64,000 bases of DNA, taken from positions 409,653-473,652 of the forward strand of contig NZ_FQZU01000001.1 in NCBI RefSeq assembly GCF_900142135.1, in the 5' to 3' direction. This document shows, in pieces, positions 51,099 through 63,467 of this stretch. The position numbers and the translations under genes were made by a program. The notes under the pieces were generated by a model, which was given only the letters and a program-made list of their open reading frames with translations, was not told where the DNA came from and searched no databases. Origin of the DNA: Desulfatibacillum alkenivorans DSM 16219. GTDB taxonomy: Bacteria > Desulfobacterota > Desulfobacteria > Desulfobacterales > Desulfatibacillaceae. Position 1 is the first letter of the stretch, and every line of letters begins with the position of its first letter.

Positions 51099-52400
51099 AT
51101 GATTTTTAACATGGAATTTGAAACGCTTCCCAGGGAGGCTATTGAAGCCATCCAGTTGCGCAGGCTCAAGGCGGTAGTGGAAAGAGCCTACAACAATGTG
51201 CCTTTTTATCGGAAAAAATACGATGAAGCGGGCATAAAGCCAGCCGATATCCAGAAGCTGGAGGACATCCAAAAACTGCCCTTCACCACCAAGCAGGACC
51301 TTCGCGACAACTACCCCTTCGGCATGTTCGCCGTACCCATGGACAACGTGGTGCGCATCCACGCTTCCTCCGGAACCACCGGCCAGCCCACGGTGGTCGG
51401 CTACACGGCCCGCGACATCTCCACCTGGGCCGAGCTCATGGCCCGTTCCCTGCAAGCCGGCGGCGCCACCCGGGACGACATCATTCACAATGCCTACGGC
51501 TACGGTTTGTTCACCGGCGGCCTGGGCGTGCATTACGGCGCGGAATGCCTGGGCGCCTCGGTCATTCCCATTTCCGGCGGCATGACCGAACGCCAGGTGC
51601 TGATCATGAAGGATTTCCGTCCTTCCATCCTCACATGCACCCCGTCCTACGCCCTCCATCTGGCCGAAGCCGCCGTGGAAAACGGCATGGACTTCGCCGA
51701 TTTCAACTTCCGCGCAGGCATCTTCGGCGCCGAGCCCTGGTCTGAAGCCATGCGTCAGGAAATCGAGAAGAAGCTGCATCTCTCCGCGGTGGACATCTAC
51801 GGCCTCTCCGAAGTTCTGGGGCCAGGCGTGGCCATGGAATGCCAGGAGGCCAAAGCCGGCCTGCACGTGTGGGAAGACCATTTCATCCCTGAAATCATCA
51901 ATCCGGACACGGAAAAGAACGTGGCCGCCGGAGAAACCGGCGAGCTGATTTTCACCAGCCTGACCAAAGAGGCTTTCCCGGTCATTCGTTACAGAACCCG
52001 CGACATCTCCAGCCTCAACTACAGCCCTTGCGTATGCGGACGCACCCATGTGCGCATGAACCGCGTCAGCGGCCGCACCGACGACATGCTCATCATCCGG
52101 GGCGTGAACGTGTTCCCCTCCCAGATCGAGTCCGTGCTCATGGAAGTCTCCCAGGTGGAGCCCCATTACCAATTGGTAGTGGACCGGGAAGGCGCCATGG
52201 ACACCCTTACCGTCAAGGTGGAAGTGGGCGAAGGCTTTTTCTCCGACGAAGTCAAGCAGCTCCAGAGCCTGCAGGCCGAAATCGCCGGCCACATCAAGGA
52301 GCTTTTGGGCGTGTCCGTCAAGGTCAAGCTGGTGGAGCCCAAAACCATTGCGCGCAGCCAGGGCAAGGCCGTTCGCGTCATCGACAACCGCAAAATTTAA
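51099..52400 (+). CDS. Phenylacetate-CoA ligase family protein (PaaK-like), intact
   Basis: A 433-residue AMP-forming aryl-CoA ligase. The nucleotide loop is [10 protein letters not shown] (89-98). [57 protein letters not shown] and the C-terminal lysine motif [11 protein letters not shown] complete a normal catalytic set. AAGGAGG precedes the ATG. PaaK homologues next to ACT-domain genes and liv transporters are common in anaerobes that ferment or oxidise amino acids through aryl or acyl-CoA. Substrate may be phenylacetate, indoleacetate or a branched acid; not resolvable here. Confidence 0.9.
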
Positions 52401-52415
52401 GCCAGGAGGCTAATT

Positions 52416-52847
52416 ATGTTTGCAGATCAAATTTCCGTGTTTCTCGAGAATAAAGCAGGCAGGCTGGCGGAGGTCACCAAAACCCTGGCCGGCGCCTCCG
52501 TCAATATCCGGGCCCTTTCCCTGGCCGACACCTCGGACTTCGGCATTCTCCGCCTGATCGTGGATAACAACGACAAAGCGGAATCCGCCCTGAAAGAGGC
52601 CGGCTTCACCGTGCGCACCACCCGGGTGGTCGCCGTGGAAGTTTCGGACAAGCCAGGCGGCCTGATGAGCATCCTGGAGTTTTTGGATTCCAAGCAGATC
52701 AACGTGGAATACATGTACGCGTTCGTGCGCCAAAGGCACGACAACGCGGTCATGATTTTCCGGTTCGACAACACCGACAGCGCCGTGGAAGCGCTGACTT
52801 CGGAAGGTTTTGCAGTGATCAAAGGAGATGAGTTGTACACCATGTAG
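52416..52847 (+). CDS. Tandem ACT-domain protein
   Basis: A 143-residue protein of two ACT domains: DQISVFLENKAGRLAEVTKTLAGASVNIRALSLADTSDFGILRLIV (residues 4-50) and VVAVEVSDKPGGLMSILEFLDSKQINVEYMYAFV (about 71-104). ACT domains bind amino acids and regulate partners. It starts 15 bp after the ligase gene, in one transcript, and probably senses a branched-chain or aromatic amino acid for the ligase or transporter. A close paralogue is at 59385. Confidence 0.9.
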   Translation: MFADQISVFLENKAGRLAEVTKTLAGASVNIRALSLADTSDFGILRLIVDNNDKAESALKEAGFTVRTTRVVAVEVSDKPGGLMSILEFLDSKQINVEYMYAFVRQRHDNAVMIFRFDNTDSAVEALTSEGFAVIKGDELYTM

Positions 52848-52892: not shown

Positions 52893-54050
52893 ATGAAAGC
52901 AGGAAAGATGAAAACATTGGCGACATTGGCAGTTTGCATTGTATTGGCGGGCTTGGTATTTGCGCCTGGAGCTTTTGCGAAAGACACATACAAGATCGGC
53001 GGCATCTTTTCCGTGACAGGCGGAGCTTCCTTTTTGGGCGCCCCTGAAAAAATGAGCATGCAGATGGTGGTGGACCAGATCAACGCCGCCGGCGGCATTG
53101 ACGGCCACATGCTGGAAGCCGTGATCTACGACACCAAGGGCGATCCCACCGAAGCGGTCAACTTCGCCAACAAGCTGATCAACAAGGACAGGGTCCTGGC
53201 CATCGTCGGCCCCAGCACCACCCCCACCACCATGGCGGTGATTCCCCTGTGCGTGCGCGCCCGGCTGCCTTTGATCAGCTGCGCCGCTGGCAACGGGATC
53301 GTCAACCCCATCCAGCCTTACGTGTTCAAAACCGCTCAGAGCGACATCCAGGCCGTGGCGACCATCTATGCCTACATGAAAGAGCAGGGCATGAAAAAAA
53401 TCGCTATCCTGTGCGTGGATAACGGGTTTGGCGCCAGCGGCGCCGTGCAACTGCGCGAGCAGGCCGCCAAGTTCGGCCTGGAAGTGGTCAGCGATGAAAG
53501 CTACGGCGGAAAAGACACCGACATGACCGCCCAGCTCACCAAGGCCCGCAAGGCCGCCCCCGACGCTCTGGTCTGCTGGGGAACCAACCCCGGACCCGCG
53601 GTCGTCGCCAAGAACGCCCAGCAGCTCAAGCTGGACTTTCCCCTGTTCATGAGCCACGGCGTGGCTTCCCCCAAGTTCATTGACATTGCCGGAGACGCCT
53701 GCGAGGGCATCATGCTGCCTACGGGCGCCGTGCTCATCGCCGACACCCTGGCCGCTGACTACCATCAGAAAGCCGCTCTGGACAAATACATCAGCGATTA
53801 CAAAAACGCTTACAATGCCGGCGTTTCCGGCTTCGGGGGATACGCCTACGACGCCATGAAGATTCTGGAAATCGCCCTTAAGGGAACCAACGGCGACAAA
53901 GCCAAAATCCGCGACAACATCGAAGCCATTCAGGGTTACATCGGCGTAACCGGCACGTTCAACTTCTCCCCCACGGAGCACAACGGCCTGGGCGCCGACT
54001 CCTTCCTCATGGTGGAGATCGCCGATGGAACCTGGAAGGTTATGAAATAA
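52893..54050 (+). CDS. livK: Branched-chain amino acid-type ABC transporter substrate-binding protein
   Basis: A 385-residue periplasmic-binding protein of the LivJ/LivK class. Signal peptide: LATLAVCIVLAGLVFAPGAFA. Mature motifs are YKIGGIFSVTGGASFLGAPEKMSMQMVVDQINAAGGIDGHMLEAVIYDTKGDPTEAVNFANKLI, IVGPSTTPTTMAVIPL and VTGTFNFSPTEHNGL. It may bind leucine-type amino acids or an aromatic acid, since related proteins accept both. It is followed by a terminator-like hairpin before livH. Confidence 0.9.
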   Translation: MKAGKMKTLATLAVCIVLAGLVFAPGAFAKDTYKIGGIFSVTGGASFLGAPEKMSMQMVVDQINAAGGIDGHMLEAVIYDTKGDPTEAVNFANKLINKDRVLAIVGPSTTPTTMAVIPLCVRARLPLISCAAGNGIVNPIQPYVFKTAQSDIQAVATIYAYMKEQGMKKIAILCVDNGFGASGAVQLREQAAKFGLEVVSDESYGGKDTDMTAQLTKARKAAPDALVCWGTNPGPAVVAKNAQQLKLDFPLFMSHGVASPKFIDIAGDACEGIMLPTGAVLIADTLAADYHQKAALDKYISDYKNAYNAGVSGFGGYAYDAMKILEIALKGTNGDKAKIRDNIEAIQGYIGVTGTFNFSPTEHNGLGADSFLMVEIADGTWKVMK

Positions 54051-54068
54051 TTAACCATGCCGGAATAA

Positions 54069-54094
54069 TCCCCCCGGAGACGGGGGGATTTTTT
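54069..54094 (+). terminator. Hairpin-T tract between livK and livH
   Basis: TCCCCCC-GGAGAC-GGGGGGA followed by TTTTTT lies just after the livK stop codon. It probably causes partial termination, giving more binding protein than membrane components. Confidence 0.8.
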
Positions 54095-54206
54095 CAGTGC
54101 ATTCCATCGTGAAATATGGTAGCACCCCAAGGGGAGGCTCGCCCATGCTGCGGCCTCCCCTCTAAATTATAATCAAAATATTTTCAGTATATTTGGACAA
54201 TCCGCC

Positions 54207-55085
54207 ATGATGCAGGAACTCTTACAGTATCTGTTCGGAGGCATCACGAACGGCGCTATATACGCCGTTATTGCTCTGGGCTTTTCCACCTTGTACAGCG
54301 CCACGGACCTGATTAACTTCGCCCAGGGCGAGTTCGTCATGCTCGGGGCTTTGCTGCTGGTCACCCTGTGGCTGAACCTGGGCCTGCCCCTGCCTTTGGC
54401 CTTTGTGCTTGTGGTGCTGGCCGTAGGGCTGGCGGGAATCATCTTTGAGCGGCTGGCCATTCGCACGGTGAGCAAGCCCGACCCCATTGTCTTGGTGATC
54501 ATCACCGTGGGCGCCTCGATTTTCCTGCGGGGACTCGGCATGGTGGGGTGGGGCAGGGACCCCCTGGCCATTCCCTCCTTTTTCAAGCTGGATTCCATTG
54601 AAATCGCCGGCGCCTACTTGCTGCCCCAAAGCCTGTTTATCGTCATTACAGTCACAATTCTGGTGGCGGCTCTGACCTTTTTCTATAAAAAGACCCTGAC
54701 CGGCAAGGCCATGAGCGCCTGCGCCATCAATAAAAAGGCTGCCTCCCTGCTGGGAATCGGCACGGAACGCATGACCCTGATGGCTTTCGCCCTGGCCACC
54801 GGCCTGGGCGCCGTGGCCGGCGTTATGATTGCGCCCATCACCATGGCCACTTACGACATGGGCTCCATGCTGGGCCTGAAAGGCTTTTGCGCCGCCATGC
54901 TGGGCGGCTTGGGAAGCCTGTGGGGCGCTTTGATCGGCGGCCTGCTTTTGGGCATAGCCGAAGCCTTGGGGGTGGGGTTTGTGTCTTCGGGCCTGAAAGA
55001 CGCCATCGCCTTTTTACTTTTATTACTCATCCTGTACATCCGGCCCACGGGCATCCTGGGAGCAAAGTCCAGCCATCGGTTCTGA
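54207..55085 (+). CDS. livH: Branched-chain amino acid ABC transporter permease LivH
   Basis: A 292-residue inner-membrane permease with about eight hydrophobic segments. It opens QYLFGGITNGAIYAVIALGFSTLYSATDLINFAQGEFVMLGALL, the usual LivH N terminus, and has KAMSACAINKKAASLLGIGTERMTLMAFALATGLGAVAGVM and GLKGFCAAMLGGLGSLWGALIGGLLLGIAEALG. Located 156 bp after livK and 25 bp before livM. Confidence 0.93.
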   Translation: MMQELLQYLFGGITNGAIYAVIALGFSTLYSATDLINFAQGEFVMLGALLLVTLWLNLGLPLPLAFVLVVLAVGLAGIIFERLAIRTVSKPDPIVLVIITVGASIFLRGLGMVGWGRDPLAIPSFFKLDSIEIAGAYLLPQSLFIVITVTILVAALTFFYKKTLTGKAMSACAINKKAASLLGIGTERMTLMAFALATGLGAVAGVMIAPITMATYDMGSMLGLKGFCAAMLGGLGSLWGALIGGLLLGIAEALGVGFVSSGLKDAIAFLLLLLILYIRPTGILGAKSSHRF

Positions 55086-56059
55086 TGCGCCCGCGGCTGC
55101 GAAGGCCGGAATGAATGAAAACTGGTTTGACGCCATGAAACAATCTTGGAAAAAAGGCTTGGCCTTCTTCGTCTTTGCAGGCGTGATTTTTTTCGCCGGG
55201 CTTTTCCTGGACAATTATTTTTATCAACAGCAGCTCACGTTCATCGGCATATTCACCCTGCTCGCCGTGGGGCTGAACATGCTCATGGGCTACGCCGGGC
55301 AGATTTCCCTGGGGCACGCGGCATTTTACGGCATCGGAGCCTATACCACGGGCGCCCTCACCGTGCACCTGGGGTGGTCCCCCTGGGCATCCCTGCCATG
55401 CGCCCTGGCCGCGTCCGGAATCATCGCCTACATCGTGGGCAAGCCGACCTTAAAACTTTCGGGCTACTACCTGGGCATGGGAACCCTTGGGTTCGGCATG
55501 ATCATGCATGTCCTTTTCCGGGAGTGGGGAAGCATCACCGGCGGCCCCAACGGACTCGTGGGCATCCCCTCCCTCAGCCTGTGGGGGATAGACCTTTCCA
55601 CCGGCCGCAATTATCTGTGGGTGGTGTGGGGCTGCGTGCTCATAACCTTCTTTATTTGCGACCGCCTGGTGAACTCCCGCGTGGGACGAGCCTTGCGGGC
55701 CATTCACTTCAGCGAGCAGGCGGCCTCCGCAGTCGGTGTGGATACGGCCAAAGCCAAGCTGCAGGTCTTTGTGTTCAGCGCCATAATCGCCGCATTGGCC
55801 GGTTTTTTGTACGCCCATCTGGTCATGTTCATCAGCCCCGGCAGCTTTAACTTTCTGGTTTCCGTCAAGTTGGTGGCCATGGTGGTCATCGGCGGCATGG
55901 CGAGCATCTGGGGCGCCTTGCTGGGCTCGACCCTGCTGACCATGCTGCCTGAATGGCTGCACGCGTTTTCCGATTATGAAATGGTAATTTACGGGGGCAT
56001 CCTCATGGGCGTGATGATTTTTCTGCCCCAGGGACTTACCCGGGGAGTATTGGATATCT

Positions 56060-56839
<780 letters not shown>

Positions 56840-57310
56840 GGAATGGGGTCAAATCTACGTTTGACGTTTGAGACCCGGCAAGGCGGGCTTTTAGGGAGCT
56901 GATGGGTGATTTTTGTTGGGTTTCGCAGGCTCAACCCAACCTACGTCGCAACAAGCAAAGCTGTAGGTTGGGTTGCGAAGTCCGGCTATGCCGTTACAAG
57001 GCGCCAATAATGCTATTGGACTTCAAACCCAACATGAAAGGGTTCATGGGACCAAATTGCTTGAAATAGAAGCGGCAAGGGATCATTTTGTTTGGGTTTC
57101 GCAGGCTCAACCCAACCTATATGGCGCCAAGCAAATCCGTTGGGTGGTTCTGCGCAAGAGGACATTTGCTTAGGAAGGCATTTATCCTTCTTTCAATGGC
57201 AAATATGATCCATTTATGATCACGCGCAGGTTCGCCCAACAAAATGATGGATATAAAACCGGGCGTCACCCGCCCGGCAATAATACGGCCCATCTGGGGC
57301 TGGAGGCAAA
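56840..57310. repeat. Repeat insertion between livG and livF
   Basis: No gene supported. Two direct copies of TTGGGTTTCGCAGGCTCAACCCAACCTA lie near 56916-56943 and 57092-57119. Between them is a GTAGGTTGGGTTGCGAAGTCCGG...GGCGCC...TGGACTTCAAACCC segment, related in inverted orientation to 474-525. The segment splits an otherwise tightly packed operon. Confidence 0.75.
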
Positions 57311-58054
57311 ATGCTTCAAATTAGAAATCTCAAATGCTATTATGGGGGCATACGGGCCTTGTCCGGGGTAAGCCTTTCGGTCTCCCAGGGGGAATTGGTG
57401 GCCCTGATCGGCGCCAATGGAGCGGGAAAAAGCACCCTGCTCCAGGCCGTTTGCGGCCTGTTGCCCTCCTGGGAAGGGGAGATCCAGTTTGACGGAAAAT
57501 CCCTGACGGGCCTCAAACCGCCGGCCATCGTGGCCCGGGGCGTCTCCATGGTTCCGGAGGGAAGGCTCATCTTTCCGCCTCTGTCGGTGCTGGACAACCT
57601 GAAATTGGGGGCTTATTTGCGTTCCCGCCAAAAGGACCATGCAGGCGTTCAGCAGGACCTGGAAAAGATGCTGGACCTTTTTCCCGTCCTGCGGGAGCGG
57701 GCCAGGCAAAACGCGGGCACCCTGTCCGGCGGCGAGCAGCAGATGCTGGCCGTGGGCAGGGCGCTTATGGCCAACCCCAGGCTTTTGCTTCTGGACGAGC
57801 CTTCCATGGGCCTGGCGCCCCTGGTGGTTCGCAAAATATTCGACACCCTCACCGAATTGAGAAAGACGGGCCTGACCATTCTGATTGTCGAGCAAAACGC
57901 CCAGGCCGCCCTGGAAATTGCGGATCGCGGCTATGTGTTGGAAACCGGCCGCATGGTCCTGGCCGGAGAAGCCTCCCAGTTATTGGAGGATAAAGAGGTC
58001 AAGCGGGCGTATTTGGGAAAAGATTATTCCAAGTTTTACGAAGGGAGAGGATAA
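57311..58054 (+). CDS. livF: Branched-chain amino acid ABC transporter ATPase LivF
   Basis: A 247-residue ABC ATPase. Walker A is GANGAGKST, with SMVPEGRLIFPPLSVLDNLKLGAYL (LivF-type Q-loop region), signature LSGGEQQMLAVGRALM, Walker B LLLLDEPSMGLAPLVV and the H loop as ILIVEQNAQAAL. It is separated from livG by 471 bp of repeat DNA but keeps the canonical order. Ends 2 bp before the next gene. Confidence 0.93.
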   Translation: MLQIRNLKCYYGGIRALSGVSLSVSQGELVALIGANGAGKSTLLQAVCGLLPSWEGEIQFDGKSLTGLKPPAIVARGVSMVPEGRLIFPPLSVLDNLKLGAYLRSRQKDHAGVQQDLEKMLDLFPVLRERARQNAGTLSGGEQQMLAVGRALMANPRLLLLDEPSMGLAPLVVRKIFDTLTELRKTGLTILIVEQNAQAALEIADRGYVLETGRMVLAGEASQLLEDKEVKRAYLGKDYSKFYEGRG

Positions 58055-58055
58055 T

Positions 58056-59342
58056 ATGGCCGTCCCTGGTTTTCCTGAGAATCCGGATTCACAGCAAAGA
58101 TCCCAACATCAATTGGAGCGTTTGCAGGAAACCCTTAATCGCGCCTACCGCAGCGTTCCTTTTTACCAGGCGGCGTTTAAGGAAAAGAATATAGACCCTC
58201 TGGACGTTGGCGGCCTGGAGGATCTGGCCAAGCTCCCTTTCACCGAGCGCAGGCATTTGGCCGAAAACTATCCTTACGGGCTGTTCGCCGTGCCGCTTCG
58301 CGACATTGTGCGCATTCACACCGCTCCCGGCGAAGGCCAGGCGCCTTCGGTTTCGGGATATACGGCCCAGGACCTGGACCTTTGGAGAGGCCTGGTGGCC
58401 CGCGCCCTGGCGGCGGCCGGAGTCAACGCCAACGACATCATGCAGATTTTTCTGGATCCCGGCCTGGCCTCCTGGGGCAGGGGATACAAGGACGGCGCCG
58501 AGGAACTGGAGGCCAGCGTGATTCCGCTGACCGCCCTTCCTCTGGAAAAGCAGCAGATGGTTTTGAAGGATTACAAAACCTCCGTGGTGGTGACCACGCC
58601 CTCCTCGGCCGAGGAATTGTGCCAGGGGCTGTACGCCAAGGGCATCAATCCCAACGAACTGGCCTTGAAAACCCTGATTTTCGCGGGCGAGCCCATAACC
58701 CTGGAAGACAGAAAGGTCATCGCCGGCAAACTCCACGTGGACACCTGGGTGCATTACGGCCTGTCCGAAGTTCCGGGACCGGCCATCGCCTTTGAATGCA
58801 AGGCCCATGAGGGCCTTCACGTGAGCGAAGATCATTTTTATCCCGAAATCATCAACCCCTCCACCGGAGAGCCCGCCGCTCCCGGAGAGGAAGGCGAATT
58901 GGTCCTCACAACCCTTACCACACGGGCTTTTCCCCTGATTCGCTTCCGCACCGGGGACCGGGTTTCGTATATCCAGGAGCCATGCTCCTGCGGCCGCACC
59001 CTGTGCCGGATTAACTGGCATCAGGAGCGCACGGACAATATTGTTGTCATTAAGGGCGTAAAAGTGCATCATGCACAAGTGATGGCCCACATCAGCAAGG
59101 CCTTGGGCTTTACCCCGACCTGCTGCCGTCTGCTGGCGGGCAAAAAAGGCGACAGGGTGGGGCTGGAGGTTTGGCTGGGTATGGACGAAACCATTTTTTC
59201 CGACGAAATCAAGGAGTTGGAGAAAGTGGTGGATAACGTGGAAAACGCCCTGATTCAGGAGCTTGGCATTACCGCCCGCGTGCGTTTGGCGGAAGGCGAA
59301 GTGGAGTGCGCTGAGCCCGGAAGACGGGAAGTGGCGCCCTGA
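58056..59342 (+). CDS. Degenerate PaaK-like protein (probable non-catalytic ligase paralogue)
   Basis: A 428-residue homologue of the ligase at 51099, alignable over its whole length (VPFY, LPFTERRHLAENYPYGLFAVP, HYGLSEVPGPAIAFEC, CGRTLCRINW). The nucleotide loop that reads [10 protein letters not shown] in the paralogue is TAPGEGQAPS at the same position, with no SGTTG. The C-terminal lysine motif (SQGKAVR) is absent; the end reads [31 protein letters not shown] is changed to ERTDNIVVIKG. So adenylation is probably lost and it may be a regulator or partner of the first ligase. The start follows AAGGGAGAGG 2 bp after livF. Confidence 0.85.
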   Translation: MAVPGFPENPDSQQRSQHQLERLQETLNRAYRSVPFYQAAFKEKNIDPLDVGGLEDLAKLPFTERRHLAENYPYGLFAVPLRDIVRIHTAPGEGQAPSVSGYTAQDLDLWRGLVARALAAAGVNANDIMQIFLDPGLASWGRGYKDGAEELEASVIPLTALPLEKQQMVLKDYKTSVVVTTPSSAEELCQGLYAKGINPNELALKTLIFAGEPITLEDRKVIAGKLHVDTWVHYGLSEVPGPAIAFECKAHEGLHVSEDHFYPEIINPSTGEPAAPGEEGELVLTTLTTRAFPLIRFRTGDRVSYIQEPCSCGRTLCRINWHQERTDNIVVIKGVKVHHAQVMAHISKALGFTPTCCRLLAGKKGDRVGLEVWLGMDETIFSDEIKELEKVVDNVENALIQELGITARVRLAEGEVECAEPGRREVAP

Positions 59343-59384
59343 AGAAAAATCGGTTATGAATGATCCGGCCACAGGAGGTTTTTT

Positions 59385-59816
59385 ATGCAGGCTGAACAGA
59401 TTTCCATCTTTATTGAAAATAAGGCGGGCAGATTAGCGGAAGTAGCCAGAATTCTATCGGATTCCGACGTAAACATCAGGGCCTTGTCCCTGGCCGATAC
59501 ATCCGACTTCGGCGTGTTGCGTTTAATTGTCAATCATACGTCCCGCGCCCGGGACGTGCTTAAGGACAACGGTTTTACGGTGCGCCGCACCTCGGTGGCG
59601 GCCGTGGAAGTGATGGACCAACCCGGCGGCCTGCTGGCTGTTCTGGACCTGTTGAACGGCGCCGGCGTTAACATCGAATACATGTACGCTTATGCAAATC
59701 CTCCCGGAGGCAATGCGGTCATGATTTTCCGCTTCGACCGCATGGAAGACGCCATTGAACTCCTGAAGAATAATAATATGAGGATATTGGAAGCCGAAGA
59801 ACTTTCCGGCATATAG
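59385..59816 (+). CDS. Tandem ACT-domain protein (paralogue of 52416)
   Basis: A 143-residue protein of the same length and plan as the ACT protein after the first ligase: EQISIFIENKAGRLAEVARILSDSDVNIRALSLADTSDFGVLRLIV, then VAAVEVMDQPGGLLAVLDLLNGAGVNIEYMYAY. Many positions are identical, so the ligase-ACT pair was duplicated as a unit. It follows the degenerate ligase by 42 bp with a CAGGAGG site. Confidence 0.9.
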   Translation: MQAEQISIFIENKAGRLAEVARILSDSDVNIRALSLADTSDFGVLRLIVNHTSRARDVLKDNGFTVRRTSVAAVEVMDQPGGLLAVLDLLNGAGVNIEYMYAYANPPGGNAVMIFRFDRMEDAIELLKNNNMRILEAEELSGI

Positions 59817-60354: not shown

Positions 60355-61752
60355 ATGACGGATTTTGAAAAGAAGATTTTGTGCATCGGAGCCGGCTATG
60401 TCGGCGGCCCCACCATGGCGATGATCGCCCTCAAGTGCCCCCAGTACAAAGTGCATGTGGTGGATATCAACCCGGACCGCATCGACGCCTGGAATTCCCA
60501 GGAACTGCCCATTTACGAGCCGGGCCTGGAAGAAGTGGTTTTTGAAGCCCGGGGAAGGAACCTGTTTTTTTCCACGGACATCCAGGAAGGCATTGAAGAA
60601 GCGGACATCATTTTCGTCAGCGTCAACACCCCGACGAAAACCTTCGGCGAGGGCGCAGGCATGGCGGCCGACCTTCAATATTGGGAAAAAACCGCCCGCC
60701 AGATCCTGGAGTGCTCCAAATCCCCCAAGATCATCGTGGAAAAAAGCACCGTGCCCGTGCGCACGGCCCAGGCCATGGAACGCATCCTGGGAACCGACGG
60801 ATCAGGCAAGTTCCAGGTGCTTTCCAATCCCGAGTTTCTGGCCGAGGGCACGGCCATTGAAGATTTAAAATGCCCGGACCGGGTGTTGATCGGCTCCCGG
60901 CTCACGGAAGAAGGCCTGAAAGCCCGGGATGAACTGGTCTCCATTTACGCCAACTGGGTGCCCAAGGAAAATATCGTCACCTCCGACACCTGGAGCAGCG
61001 AGCTCTCCAAACTGGTGGCCAACGCCTTTCTGGCCCAGCGAATTTCGTCCATCAACGCCATTTCCGCTTTATGCGAAAAAACCGGCGCCGACGTCAGCCG
61101 GGTGGCTTACGCCGTTGGCAAGGACGGCAGGATCGGCGACAAGTTCCTCAAGTCCAGCGTGGGATTCGGAGGCTCCTGCTTTAAAAAGGACATCCTGAAC
61201 CTGGTGTATCTGTGCCGCAGCTACGGCCTCCAGGAAGTGGCGGATTACTGGGAGCAGGTGGTCAAGATCAACGAGTACCAGAAGGAACGCTTTGTCCTGA
61301 ACATGCTTCACACCATGTTCGACACCCTGGCCGGCAAGAGGATCTGCCTCCTTGGCTTTGCATTCAAGGCCGACACCGGCGACACCCGCGAAACCCCGGG
61401 CATCTACATCGCCCAGCGCCTCGCCGAGGAGCATTGCCGGGTTGTGGTTTCCGACCCCCAGGCTTTGGACAACGCCAAAATTGACCTCAAAGATTTGGGA
61501 GACGCGGTAAGCTACGTGGAAGACCCCTACGAAGCGGCCGCAGACTGCGACGCCCTGGCGGTTCTCACCGAGTGGAATCTTTATAAAGAATTGGATTACA
61601 CTAAAATATACAACAGCATGACCAAACCCGCTTTTGTGTTTGACGGCAGGAACATTCTGGATCATCAGGCGCTGCATGACATCGGCTTCAATGTATTTCC
61701 TATTGGTAAGCCCGCGCTTACCCATTACCGGATGAATGGGCGGACAAGATGA
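60355..61752 (+). CDS. ugd: UDP-glucose 6-dehydrogenase
   Basis: A 465-residue NAD-dependent dehydrogenase that converts UDP-glucose to UDP-glucuronate. It has the Rossmann glycine motif IGAGYVGGPT at the N terminus, ISVNTPT-like VSVNTPTKTFGEG, EKSTVPVRTAQAM, NPEFLAEGTAI and the catalytic-cysteine motif SVGFGGSCFKKDI. The GGPT and SSINAISALCEKTGADV style is closer to animal-type UGDH than to short bacterial Ugd. The last codons overlap the next gene by 4 bp (ATGA). UDP-glucuronate feeds acidic exopolysaccharide, consistent with the epimerase following. Confidence 0.92.
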   Translation: MTDFEKKILCIGAGYVGGPTMAMIALKCPQYKVHVVDINPDRIDAWNSQELPIYEPGLEEVVFEARGRNLFFSTDIQEGIEEADIIFVSVNTPTKTFGEGAGMAADLQYWEKTARQILECSKSPKIIVEKSTVPVRTAQAMERILGTDGSGKFQVLSNPEFLAEGTAIEDLKCPDRVLIGSRLTEEGLKARDELVSIYANWVPKENIVTSDTWSSELSKLVANAFLAQRISSINAISALCEKTGADVSRVAYAVGKDGRIGDKFLKSSVGFGGSCFKKDILNLVYLCRSYGLQEVADYWEQVVKINEYQKERFVLNMLHTMFDTLAGKRICLLGFAFKADTGDTRETPGIYIAQRLAEEHCRVVVSDPQALDNAKIDLKDLGDAVSYVEDPYEAAADCDALAVLTEWNLYKELDYTKIYNSMTKPAFVFDGRNILDHQALHDIGFNVFPIGKPALTHYRMNGRTR

Positions 61753-63467
61753 GCAATCCCCTGATCGGAGCGCCCCATGGCGGGGAACTGGTTGACCTGA
61801 TTGTTTCGGAAAGCCGGGCGGAGGAACTGCGCGAGCTTTCTCTGGATATGGAAAGCGTGGTCCTTACGGACCCGCAGCTTTCGGACCTGGAGCTTTTGGC
61901 CAACGGCGCATACTCCCCGTTGACGGGCTTCATGTGTAAAAACGATTGCCGGCAGGTTCTGGAAACCATGCGGTTGTCGGACGGCCTGCTCTGGCCCATC
62001 CCCATTTGCCTGGACGTGCAGGAGGATGCGGCCGCCAATCTTTCCGTGGGCCAAACCGTTGCTTTGCGCGACGCCGAGGGCTTCATGCCCGCGGTCATGC
62101 ACATTAAAGACATATGGCCTGTGGATCGCCAGGCCTATGCGCAAGGCGTGTTCGGAACGGCGGATCCGGCTCACCCGGGCGTGGATCGCATGTTTAACAC
62201 CATGGGAAGCCACTTTATAGGCGGGGACGTGGAGGTTCTCACCCTGCCGCTGCGTTTTGGATTCCGCAGGCTTCGCCACACGCCCCAGGAAATCCGCACC
62301 TTGTTCAAAAAATTGGGGTGGCGCAGCGTAGTCGCCTTTCACACGGAAAAAGTGCTGCACCGGCCTGACTACGAGCAAACCATCCGGGCCATGGCCCACG
62401 CCCGGGCCAATTTGCTGCTGCACCCGGTCATCGGCAGAATCCGCCCCGGCGATATGGACACATACACCCGGGTTCGATGTTATTTGGCGGCTTGCCAAAA
62501 ATACTCACCAGGCTCCATGATCACCCTCAGCCTGCTTCCCTACACCATGCGTTACGCCGGCCCCCGGGAAGCGCTGCTTCACGCAATAATCCGTAAAAAT
62601 TACGGATGCACCCACTTTATTGTGGCGCCGTGCCACGCCGGCCCGGAAGCCGGCGAGTCCTGCACCGCGTTTTACGATCCGGACGCCGCATTCAGCCTGG
62701 CCGCCTCCTACGCCGGAGAGTTGAATCTGTCCGTCTTGCAATTCGAAGATTTGGTCTACGTGGAAGAGGACGGAGCTTATGTGCCTAAAAAAGAGGCCAA
62801 CGGCCGAAAAATCCGGTCCATGACGGAGGAAGAGTTTATCAAGCGGATTCAGGACGGCAAAAAAGCCCCTGAATGGTTCACATTCCCCGAAGTGGCCAAG
62901 GAGATGGAACGATCCTATCCGCCCAAGTCCGTCCAGGGTTTCACTATCTTTTGCACCGGCCTCTCCGGCGCCGGAAAATCCACCATAGCCGGCCTTGTTT
63001 GCGCCCGCTTGCAGGAGATGGGCGGCCGCCCCGTCACCTTTTTGGACGGGGATATCGTGCGAAAGAATCTATCCAGCGAGCTGGGCTTTTCCAAGGAGCA
63101 TCGGGACATCAACGTGCGGCGCATTGGTTTTGTGGCCAGCGAAATCACAAAAAACCGGGGAATCGCCATTTGCGCCCCCATTGCGCCTTACGGGGCCACT
63201 CGCAGGCAAATTCGCAGGAATATTGAAACCCACGGCGGATTTATAGAAATCCATGTGGCCACTCCTTTGACCGTTTGCGAAAAAAGAGACCCTAAGGGCT
63301 TGTATTCCAAGGCAAGGTCTGGTTTGATCAAGGACTTTACCGGGATCGACGACCCTTACGAGGAGCCCGAACGCCCGGAAGTGACTTTGGATACAACGGA
63401 TATGACTCCTGAGGAAGCCGCCCAGGAGGTCCTCTTGTATCTGGAACGGACCGGGTACATCCGCTAA
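61749..63467 (+). CDS. ATP-sulfurylase-like/APS kinase fusion (sulfurylase half degenerate)
   Basis: A 572-residue two-domain protein. Residues 1-385 are clearly a sulfurylase homologue (DLELLANGAYSPLTGFM, MRYAGPREALLHAIIRKNYGCTHFIV). But the ATP-binding motif QTRNPxHRAH is changed to HTEKVLHRPD (198-207), and GRDHAGPG to APCHAGPE. Residues 396-572 form an intact APS kinase: GLSGAGKST (404-412), DGDIVRKNLSSELGFSKEHRD, NVRRIGFVASEI, DPKGLYSKARSGLIKDFTGIDDPYE. It would make PAPS from APS. Coupled to ugd, so sulfation of a polysaccharide is a reasonable guess. The domain order resembles the bacterial Sat-CysC fusions. Confidence 0.87.
   Translation: MSNPLIGAPHGGELVDLIVSESRAEELRELSLDMESVVLTDPQLSDLELLANGAYSPLTGFMCKNDCRQVLETMRLSDGLLWPIPICLDVQEDAAANLSVGQTVALRDAEGFMPAVMHIKDIWPVDRQAYAQGVFGTADPAHPGVDRMFNTMGSHFIGGDVEVLTLPLRFGFRRLRHTPQEIRTLFKKLGWRSVVAFHTEKVLHRPDYEQTIRAMAHARANLLLHPVIGRIRPGDMDTYTRVRCYLAACQKYSPGSMITLSLLPYTMRYAGPREALLHAIIRKNYGCTHFIVAPCHAGPEAGESCTAFYDPDAAFSLAASYAGELNLSVLQFEDLVYVEEDGAYVPKKEANGRKIRSMTEEEFIKRIQDGKKAPEWFTFPEVAKEMERSYPPKSVQGFTIFCTGLSGAGKSTIAGLVCARLQEMGGRPVTFLDGDIVRKNLSSELGFSKEHRDINVRRIGFVASEITKNRGIAICAPIAPYGATRRQIRRNIETHGGFIEIHVATPLTVCEKRDPKGLYSKARSGLIKDFTGIDDPYEEPERPEVTLDTTDMTPEEAAQEVLLYLERTGYIR

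Follow-up and report, generated by a model that had tools for sequence, protein, structure and literature searches.

The locus analysed here raises the question of what a PaaK-type ligase without adenylation motifs is doing directly behind livF, an ATPase gene of a Liv-type importer. It lies in a 64,000 bp stretch of the 6.47 Mb genome of Desulfatibacillum alkenivorans DSM 16219 (contig NZ_FQZU01000001.1, positions 409,653 to 473,652), which we call the window and which holds two such genes, ligase 1 and ligase 2 (table 1). A sequence-only reading had placed two ligase-ACT pairs at 51099/52416 and 58056/59385, on either side of livKHMGF, and these positions are correct; the livKHMGF block occupies 52893-58054, between ligase 1/ACT1 and ligase 2/ACT2. 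Ligase 2, called the pseudoligase below, starts one base past the livF stop, and its ribosome site GGGAGAGG sits within the last livF codons. The closest named relative is a Desulfatibacillum MAG (locus L031, 86% identity). Downstream, at 60355-63467, are what we take from the sequence to be a nucleotide-sugar dehydrogenase-like gene and an ATP sulfurylase/APS kinase fusion-like gene.

Table 1. Features of the ligase-liv locus (window coordinates)
Feature	Position	Strand	Size and basis
Ligase 1, PaaK type, SSGTTGQP loop and GKAVRVID tail	51099..52400	+	433 aa; ORF, family-model scan
ACT1, paired ACT domains (PF19571 ACT_8)	52416..52847	+	Pfam scan
livK-like substrate-binding protein	52893..54050	+	Family-model scans
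livH-like permease	54207..55085	+	ORF; name from operon place and sequence-only reading
livM-like permease	55111..56103	+	ORF; name from operon place
livG-like ATPase	56060..56839	+	Family-model scans
livF-like ATPase	57311..58054	+	ORF; ABC motifs read in the sequence
Pseudoligase (ligase 2), PaaK fold without adenylation motifs	58056..59342	+	428 aa; motifs, predicted fold
Altered P-loop HTAPGEGQAPS, residues 88-98 of ligase 2	58317..58349	+	Sequence
Clade motif GLASWGRGYKDGAE, residues 136-149, replacing the acid-pocket stretch	58461..58502	+	Alignment; predicted helix 135-150
Retained A7 motif PLIRFRTGD, residues 293-301	58932..58958	+	Alignment
Tail after the last strand, without A10 lysine, residues 414-428	59295..59339	+	Alignment; residues 419-428 pLDDT <50
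ACT2, paired ACT domains	59385..59816	+	Pfam scan

The second ligase and its clade

At the P-loop position ligase 2 has HTAPGEGQAPS where ligase 1 has an SSGTTGxP-type loop (SSGTTGQP), and comparison of the two sequences shows no GK in the ligase 2 tail; an ungapped side-by-side alignment puts a Gly-Arg of ligase 2 opposite the Gly-Lys of ligase 1, but other clade members do not share this alignment and it may be a coincidence. The motifs and the open reading frame thus bear out the sequence-only description of an intact frame without canonical loop or GK tail. That description overlooked that the acid-pocket loop is replaced too: YGYGLFTGG of ligase 1 has become LDPGLASWGRG, and the pocket region of ligase 2 reads LDPGLASWGRGYKDGAE where ligase 1 has its own stretch.

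TIGR02155 (PaaK equivalog, cut-off 646.3 bits) and other PaaK models do match it, below cut-off, with 314.4 bits for TIGR02155 (ligase 1 has 638.9 and is also below); it reaches 26.0 bits with Pfam AMP-binding PF00501, under the gathering score of 29.9, and the Pfam scan reported no match of ligase 2 to the C-terminal PF14535. By score, SSGTTGxP P-loop and A10 lysine alike, ligase 2 falls outside the PaaK equivalog. The two-domain adenylate-forming ANL/PaaK fold is nevertheless retained in the AlphaFold model of ligase 2 (mean pLDDT 85.8), whose best structural matches over 420 residues are PaaK2 (2y4o_B; Z 46.4, rmsd 2.6) and BT_0428 (4r1l_A; Z 46.0, rmsd 2.7); in a Foldseek search with this model BT_0428 is 34% identical. 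The alignments behind the models of both ligases had 60 rows, three of them clade members. In these models the helix after the pocket loop starts at residue 135 in ligase 2 and at residue 140 in ligase 1, and the GLFTGG loop is predicted to have been turned into part of a helix in ligase 2. Both models take the same thioester-like pose; since the true ligase has it too, the pose is uninformative, and we rejected it as a functional clue.

In an order-wide search with a threshold of E 1e-100, 95 of 389 genomes (33 of 150 genera) gave a match. All of these matches, taken with their flanks, yielded 85 core rows (the window included) and 10 rows of a divergent family, f42. Two second copies of another type were among the loci fetched (L219 and L224). 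A search of the phylum (395 genomes) added nine close members in families f139 and f155 (55-60% identity) and a basal group, f79/f122 (46-51%), so that the clade also occurs in other orders; the threshold of that search admits ordinary PaaK proteins, and its tally of 98 genomes is therefore not a count of pseudoligases. Most f79/f122 loci (L032, L239-L253) have an additional LivK-like substrate-binding gene 3' of the pseudoligase. In the f42 locus L217 (11511-13909) the pseudoligase is followed by a ResA-like and then an MlaD-like gene, and a ResA-like gene also lies 3' of the second ligase-like copy in L219 (13577-14110).

SGTTG is present in none of 84 core rows (one further row begins past the loop) and the A10 GK motif in none of 85 (one row has a GK elsewhere in its tail); all 45 ligase 1 rows have both SSGTTG and the GK tail. 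Among the core rows the loop follows the consensus HTAPGxxxxP[TS][VI][ST]GYT, with His and Thr in 84 of 84 rows, Ala90 in 81 and Pro91 in 76. Its last glycine is replaced variably (R in 18, T in 16, L in 12, H in 7, A in 6, and others), which leaves the loop partly free to vary. Since one or two Thr are retained in many loops of the clade (APGTTRNP is an example), a degree of contact with phosphate may persist. At the site of the acid-pocket stretch, the pattern GLxxWxR(x4)GAE was found in 84 of the 85 core rows, in 9 of the 10 f42 rows and in 22 of the 23 rows from L230-L253. It was found in none of 145 other rows, which comprise 45 ligase 1 rows, 93 PaaK rows (loci L033-L110, mostly other phyla) and seven rows of a further group described below. 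The alignments indicate that the pocket stretch has been rebuilt around a conserved Trp and Arg.

The remaining core motifs are largely kept. A5 has Tyr in 77, Phe in 6 and Trp in 2 of the 85 core rows; the A7 Asp is present in 81 (Glu in 4) and the A8 Arg in 74 (Gln in 11), and ligase 2 itself carries both the A7 aspartate and the A8 arginine. The passages of PMC8388817 on these motifs assign phosphate and adenylation roles to the A3 loop and the A10 lysine, and ATP and ribose contacts to A5, A7 and A8; they also have Ser94, Thr96 and Thr97 of the PaaK1 loop helping to hold phosphates, and a table there lists A3-loop changes in an aryl-CoA ligase that cut activity 4- to 2,000-fold or abolish it. 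With A3 and A10 changed or gone and A5, A7 and A8 largely kept, it would be the phosphate chemistry that was lost and not the whole nucleotide site.

Our tree was built by a quick method, is unrooted with SH-aLRT support only, and contains 29 of the 85 core rows, the 10 f42 rows, 14 of the 45 ligase 1 rows, one in three rows of the wider PaaK loci and 9 others. The core pseudoligases form a single clade (SH-aLRT 100); core, f42 and L032 lie on one side of a branch with support 99, and the wider-set PaaK proteins and ligase 1 form another set, also with support 99. Ligases 1 and 2, which are 40-41% identical, are by this evidence ancient paralogues in separate, well-supported clades. If the root lies among the ordinary PaaK proteins, the lysine may have been lost once. 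The L032 and f79/f122 rows have SSPGTTxxP-type loops and no tail, as if the tail had been lost before the loop. A further group of seven PaaK-like proteins (L213, L215 and L219, which are second copies, and L224, L225, L227 and L228) stands apart in the tree (support 95) and has other degenerate loops and the lysine tail in none of seven; five of the seven directly follow a livF.

The clade is under purifying selection. Pseudoligase dN/dS is 0.097-0.258 in six pairs, and 1.1-3.1 times the ligase 1 value in the three pairs in which both were measured, in frames that include some upstream sequence overlapping livF and with high dS in some pairs. The alignments were built from uninterrupted open frames, which reach the domain end in those inspected. 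Stop codons were listed inside seven search matches (G253, G362, G319, G369, G726, G675 and G549), and we take these to sit at or past the natural end.

Neighbours of the pseudoligase gene

The constant neighbour of the pseudoligase is livF. It is the labelled gene directly upstream in 83 of the 85 core rows, the other two being at contig ends, and in all 10 f42 rows. For 79 core rows a start was assigned by simple choice, and the gap to livF then has a median of -4 nt. Both catalytic motifs are missing from all 113 of the 274 PaaK-like rows that start within 150 nt after livF. Among the remaining 161 rows, 153 have the lysine tail and 139 have the strict loop pattern as well. Five of the eight tail-less rows are clade members (L138, L180, L032, L262 and L271) whose frames open 219-420 nt past livF, and the other three (the L213 second copy, L225 and L228) belong to the further group. 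L032 and L271 come from a single contig, which makes two of the 274 rows repeats, and since related rows are not independent the association between livF and motif loss is a strong pattern, not a probability. The alignment of homologues that the sequence-only reading had proposed therefore makes the motif loss a character of the clade (113 of 113 livF-adjacent rows, with GLxxWxR(x4)GAE in 115 of 118), and the random loop decay that it had named as counter-evidence was not seen, some varying positions aside.

Ligase 1 is a less regular neighbour. All 22 genomes of family f36 that were tested have it, but outside the stretch fetched around the pseudoligase (13-22 kb off on the same contig in G352, G353 and G256); livF precedes the pseudoligase in all 22, and livK, H and M were recognised in 16. 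The pseudoligase can thus stay with the importer without ligase 1 alongside. Ligase 1 was found in 34 of 40 other carrier genomes, the six without it being 69-96% complete, and PaaK-like genes are present in 35 of 40 relatives at E 1e-60; since ligase 1 is common anyway, its co-occurrence with the pseudoligase is weak evidence.

The g73 loci (family f69; L144, L169 and L175) have liv genes of a distant type within an otherwise similar operon. Distances were taken from a mirror-tree comparison of the pseudoligase with each operon gene in 57 loci (L032 and L271 sharing a contig), in which the correlation hinges on the three g73 rows and the livF column included one mispicked ORF (L131). Relative to the usual distance from the rest, the proteins of the three full g73 loci stand at factors of 2.1-2.7 for LivK, H and M, 1.4-1.5 for LivG and F, and 0.96-1.07 for ligase 1, ACT1 and the pseudoligase. 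It appears from these distances that the importer was swapped in place, so a different importer need not part the pseudoligase from ligase 1, and the pseudoligase does not belong to a single Liv complex alone.

Both ACT proteins match PF19571 ACT_8 far above its gathering score of 23.5 (ACT2 94.2 bits, ACT1 92.6 bits), and ACT2 is related to 2f06. All 8 loci of family f1, to which the window belongs, have ACT2 3' of the pseudoligase, and no ACT gene was found after the pseudoligase in the labelled loci outside f1, some of which end soon after it. The second ligase-ACT "pair" is therefore not ancestral. The ACT tree, with its long branches and 7 of 39 forks starred, gives no clear sign of whether ACT2 arose from ACT1. 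Since PaaK often has an ACT-like neighbour in the wider PaaK loci, ligase 1 and ACT1 are probably an ancient unit. The name "duplicated pair" given to the two sets by the sequence-only reading is accordingly misleading, and a recent duplication of a ligase-ACT pair is ruled out by the 40-41% identity of the ligases, their separate clades and the restriction of ACT2 to f1.

In four loci from other phyla (L039, L048, L066 and L100) an ACT-like gene and a gene for indolepyruvate ferredoxin oxidoreductase lie close to PaaK; these are the four with a nearby iorA among the seven wider-set loci scanned. Each of 12 carrier genomes has genes that match iorA, and in 11 the match is over the cut-off. No iorA was found among 10 neighbour proteins scanned from seven pseudoligase operon loci, and we rejected a link of this oxidoreductase to the pseudoligase operon.

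Known relatives

Burkholderia cenocepacia PaaK1 and PaaK2 (2Y27, 2Y4N, 2Y4O) are like ligase 2 in fold over 420 residues and in the A5, A7 and A8 motifs, but differ from it at the P-loop, the acid-pocket stretch and the A10 lysine, which ligase 2 has in altered form or not at all. Bacteroides thetaiotaomicron BT_0428, a putative acyl-CoA ligase (4R1L), has the same fold and, unlike ligase 2, keeps the SSGTTG loop (the alignment excludes the BT_0428 tail). A shortened form of the superfamily fold is found in a phenazine antibiotic biosynthesis protein (3HGV and 3L2K; Z 23.1 and 22.7) that has 16% identity to ligase 2 and belongs to another pathway; we take this protein to be EhpF, which presumably is without the C-terminal domain. 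NatL2, AjiA1 and ClxA are, like ligase 2, divergent PaaK-fold proteins (19-23% identity to it). Going by their entry titles, the NatL2-type and ClxA structures were solved with AMP or adenylate, so those proteins do bind such ligands. AjiA1 and NatL2 are placed in benzoxazole biosynthesis in the part of PMC8388817 that treats them.

An orthologue of the pseudoligase is probably already in print as a ligase. In its account of these genes PMC5109826 gives Desulfococcus multivorans two PadJ genes, dmul_C22990 (54% identity to EbA5402) and C23060 (35%). The second is presumably the pseudoligase orthologue: in L165 (genome G018) ligase 1, ACT, livKHMGF and the pseudoligase lie in a row, and the dmul tag numbers fit eight genes. 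PMC5109826 calls dmul_C23060 a phenylacetate-CoA ligase, a name that the motifs do not support. The same paper draws the D. multivorans phenylacetate-specific proteins that it names from other clusters, so the ligand of the pseudoligase need not be phenylacetate; this placement argues against phenylacetate breakdown as the job of the operon. A literature search that took in few subscription papers turned up no description of a PaaK paralogue that is non-catalytic and lies next to liv genes.

Possible roles

Long retention next to an importer ATPase gene, without the parts that use ATP, suggests that the pseudoligase senses or regulates rather than catalyses. We put at about one in two the probability that it serves an import and activation module in an accessory or regulatory role, as a protein that binds a ligand but does not adenylate it. 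The ligand would be small (the imported acid, the CoA ester of that acid, or AMP/CoA), and the protein would bring import into line with the activation to CoA esters that the true PaaK carries out; in the family of the window a second ACT protein has been added, perhaps for amino-acid feedback. Much of the sequence-only interpretation stands: by its motifs the protein is non-catalytic, it is conserved across a clade, and its gene goes with the transporter. ACT2 as a general partner of the pseudoligase does not stand.

That reading had also offered a heteromeric partnership, with the pseudoligase as a structural or regulatory subunit of ligase 1. The presence of ligase 1 in most carriers tested (22 of 22 and 34 of 40), the description of PaaK1 and PaaK2 as dimers in the structural passages of PMC8388817 and PMC4498308, and the g73 operons, which keep both ligases and ACT1 while liv differs, all speak for such a partnership, but PaaK-like genes are so common among relatives that co-occurrence says little, and in f36 the ligases are apart with the pseudoligase still after livF; we consider it rather doubtful. 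A changed catalysis is somewhat less probable again: adenylation would have been lost and another reaction gained, such as transfer from ready-made acyl-AMP or acyl-CoA, or the reverse half-reaction. The largely kept A5, A7 and A8, the conserved Trp and Arg that have newly arisen around the pocket and the existence of PaaK-like proteins with other products (AjiA1 and NatL2, in the part of PMC8388817 noted above) are what one would expect of it, but no new catalytic residue is identifiable, and the thioester-like predicted pose, common to the true-ligase model, says nothing.

It is quite improbable that the pseudoligase is still a phenylacetate-CoA ligase, as its presumed D. multivorans orthologue is named. 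That name was given, in the relevant part of PMC5109826, on 35% identity, and PaaK models do match; but the TIGR02155 score is less than half the cut-off, loop and lysine are changed in the clade rows examined, and changes in the same loop are costly in the aryl-CoA ligase tabulated in PMC8388817. Nor do we give any real credit to a pseudogene in decay. The loss of catalytic motifs and the freely varying loop positions might suggest one, but we reject it in view of the open frames, the low dN/dS, the conserved replacement motif and the tight coupling to livF.

Beyond the single locus, we suggest tentatively, and as something that may well prove otherwise, that transporter-linked ANL pseudoenzymes form a class of their own, in which a dead CoA ligase, recruited as a receptor in the cytoplasm, responds to an acid or acyl-CoA and gates a Liv-type importer or the adjacent ligase. 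The pseudoligase is a clear example of how a CoA ligase can become a conserved protein, probably non-adenylating, next to an importer, and the motif that replaces its pocket is a direct handle on ligand and function. Annotations that count it as a second phenylacetate-CoA ligase would need correction. If receptors of the kind suggested here exist, they would give feedback control of the uptake of aromatic or branched-chain acids in sulfate reducers and their relatives.
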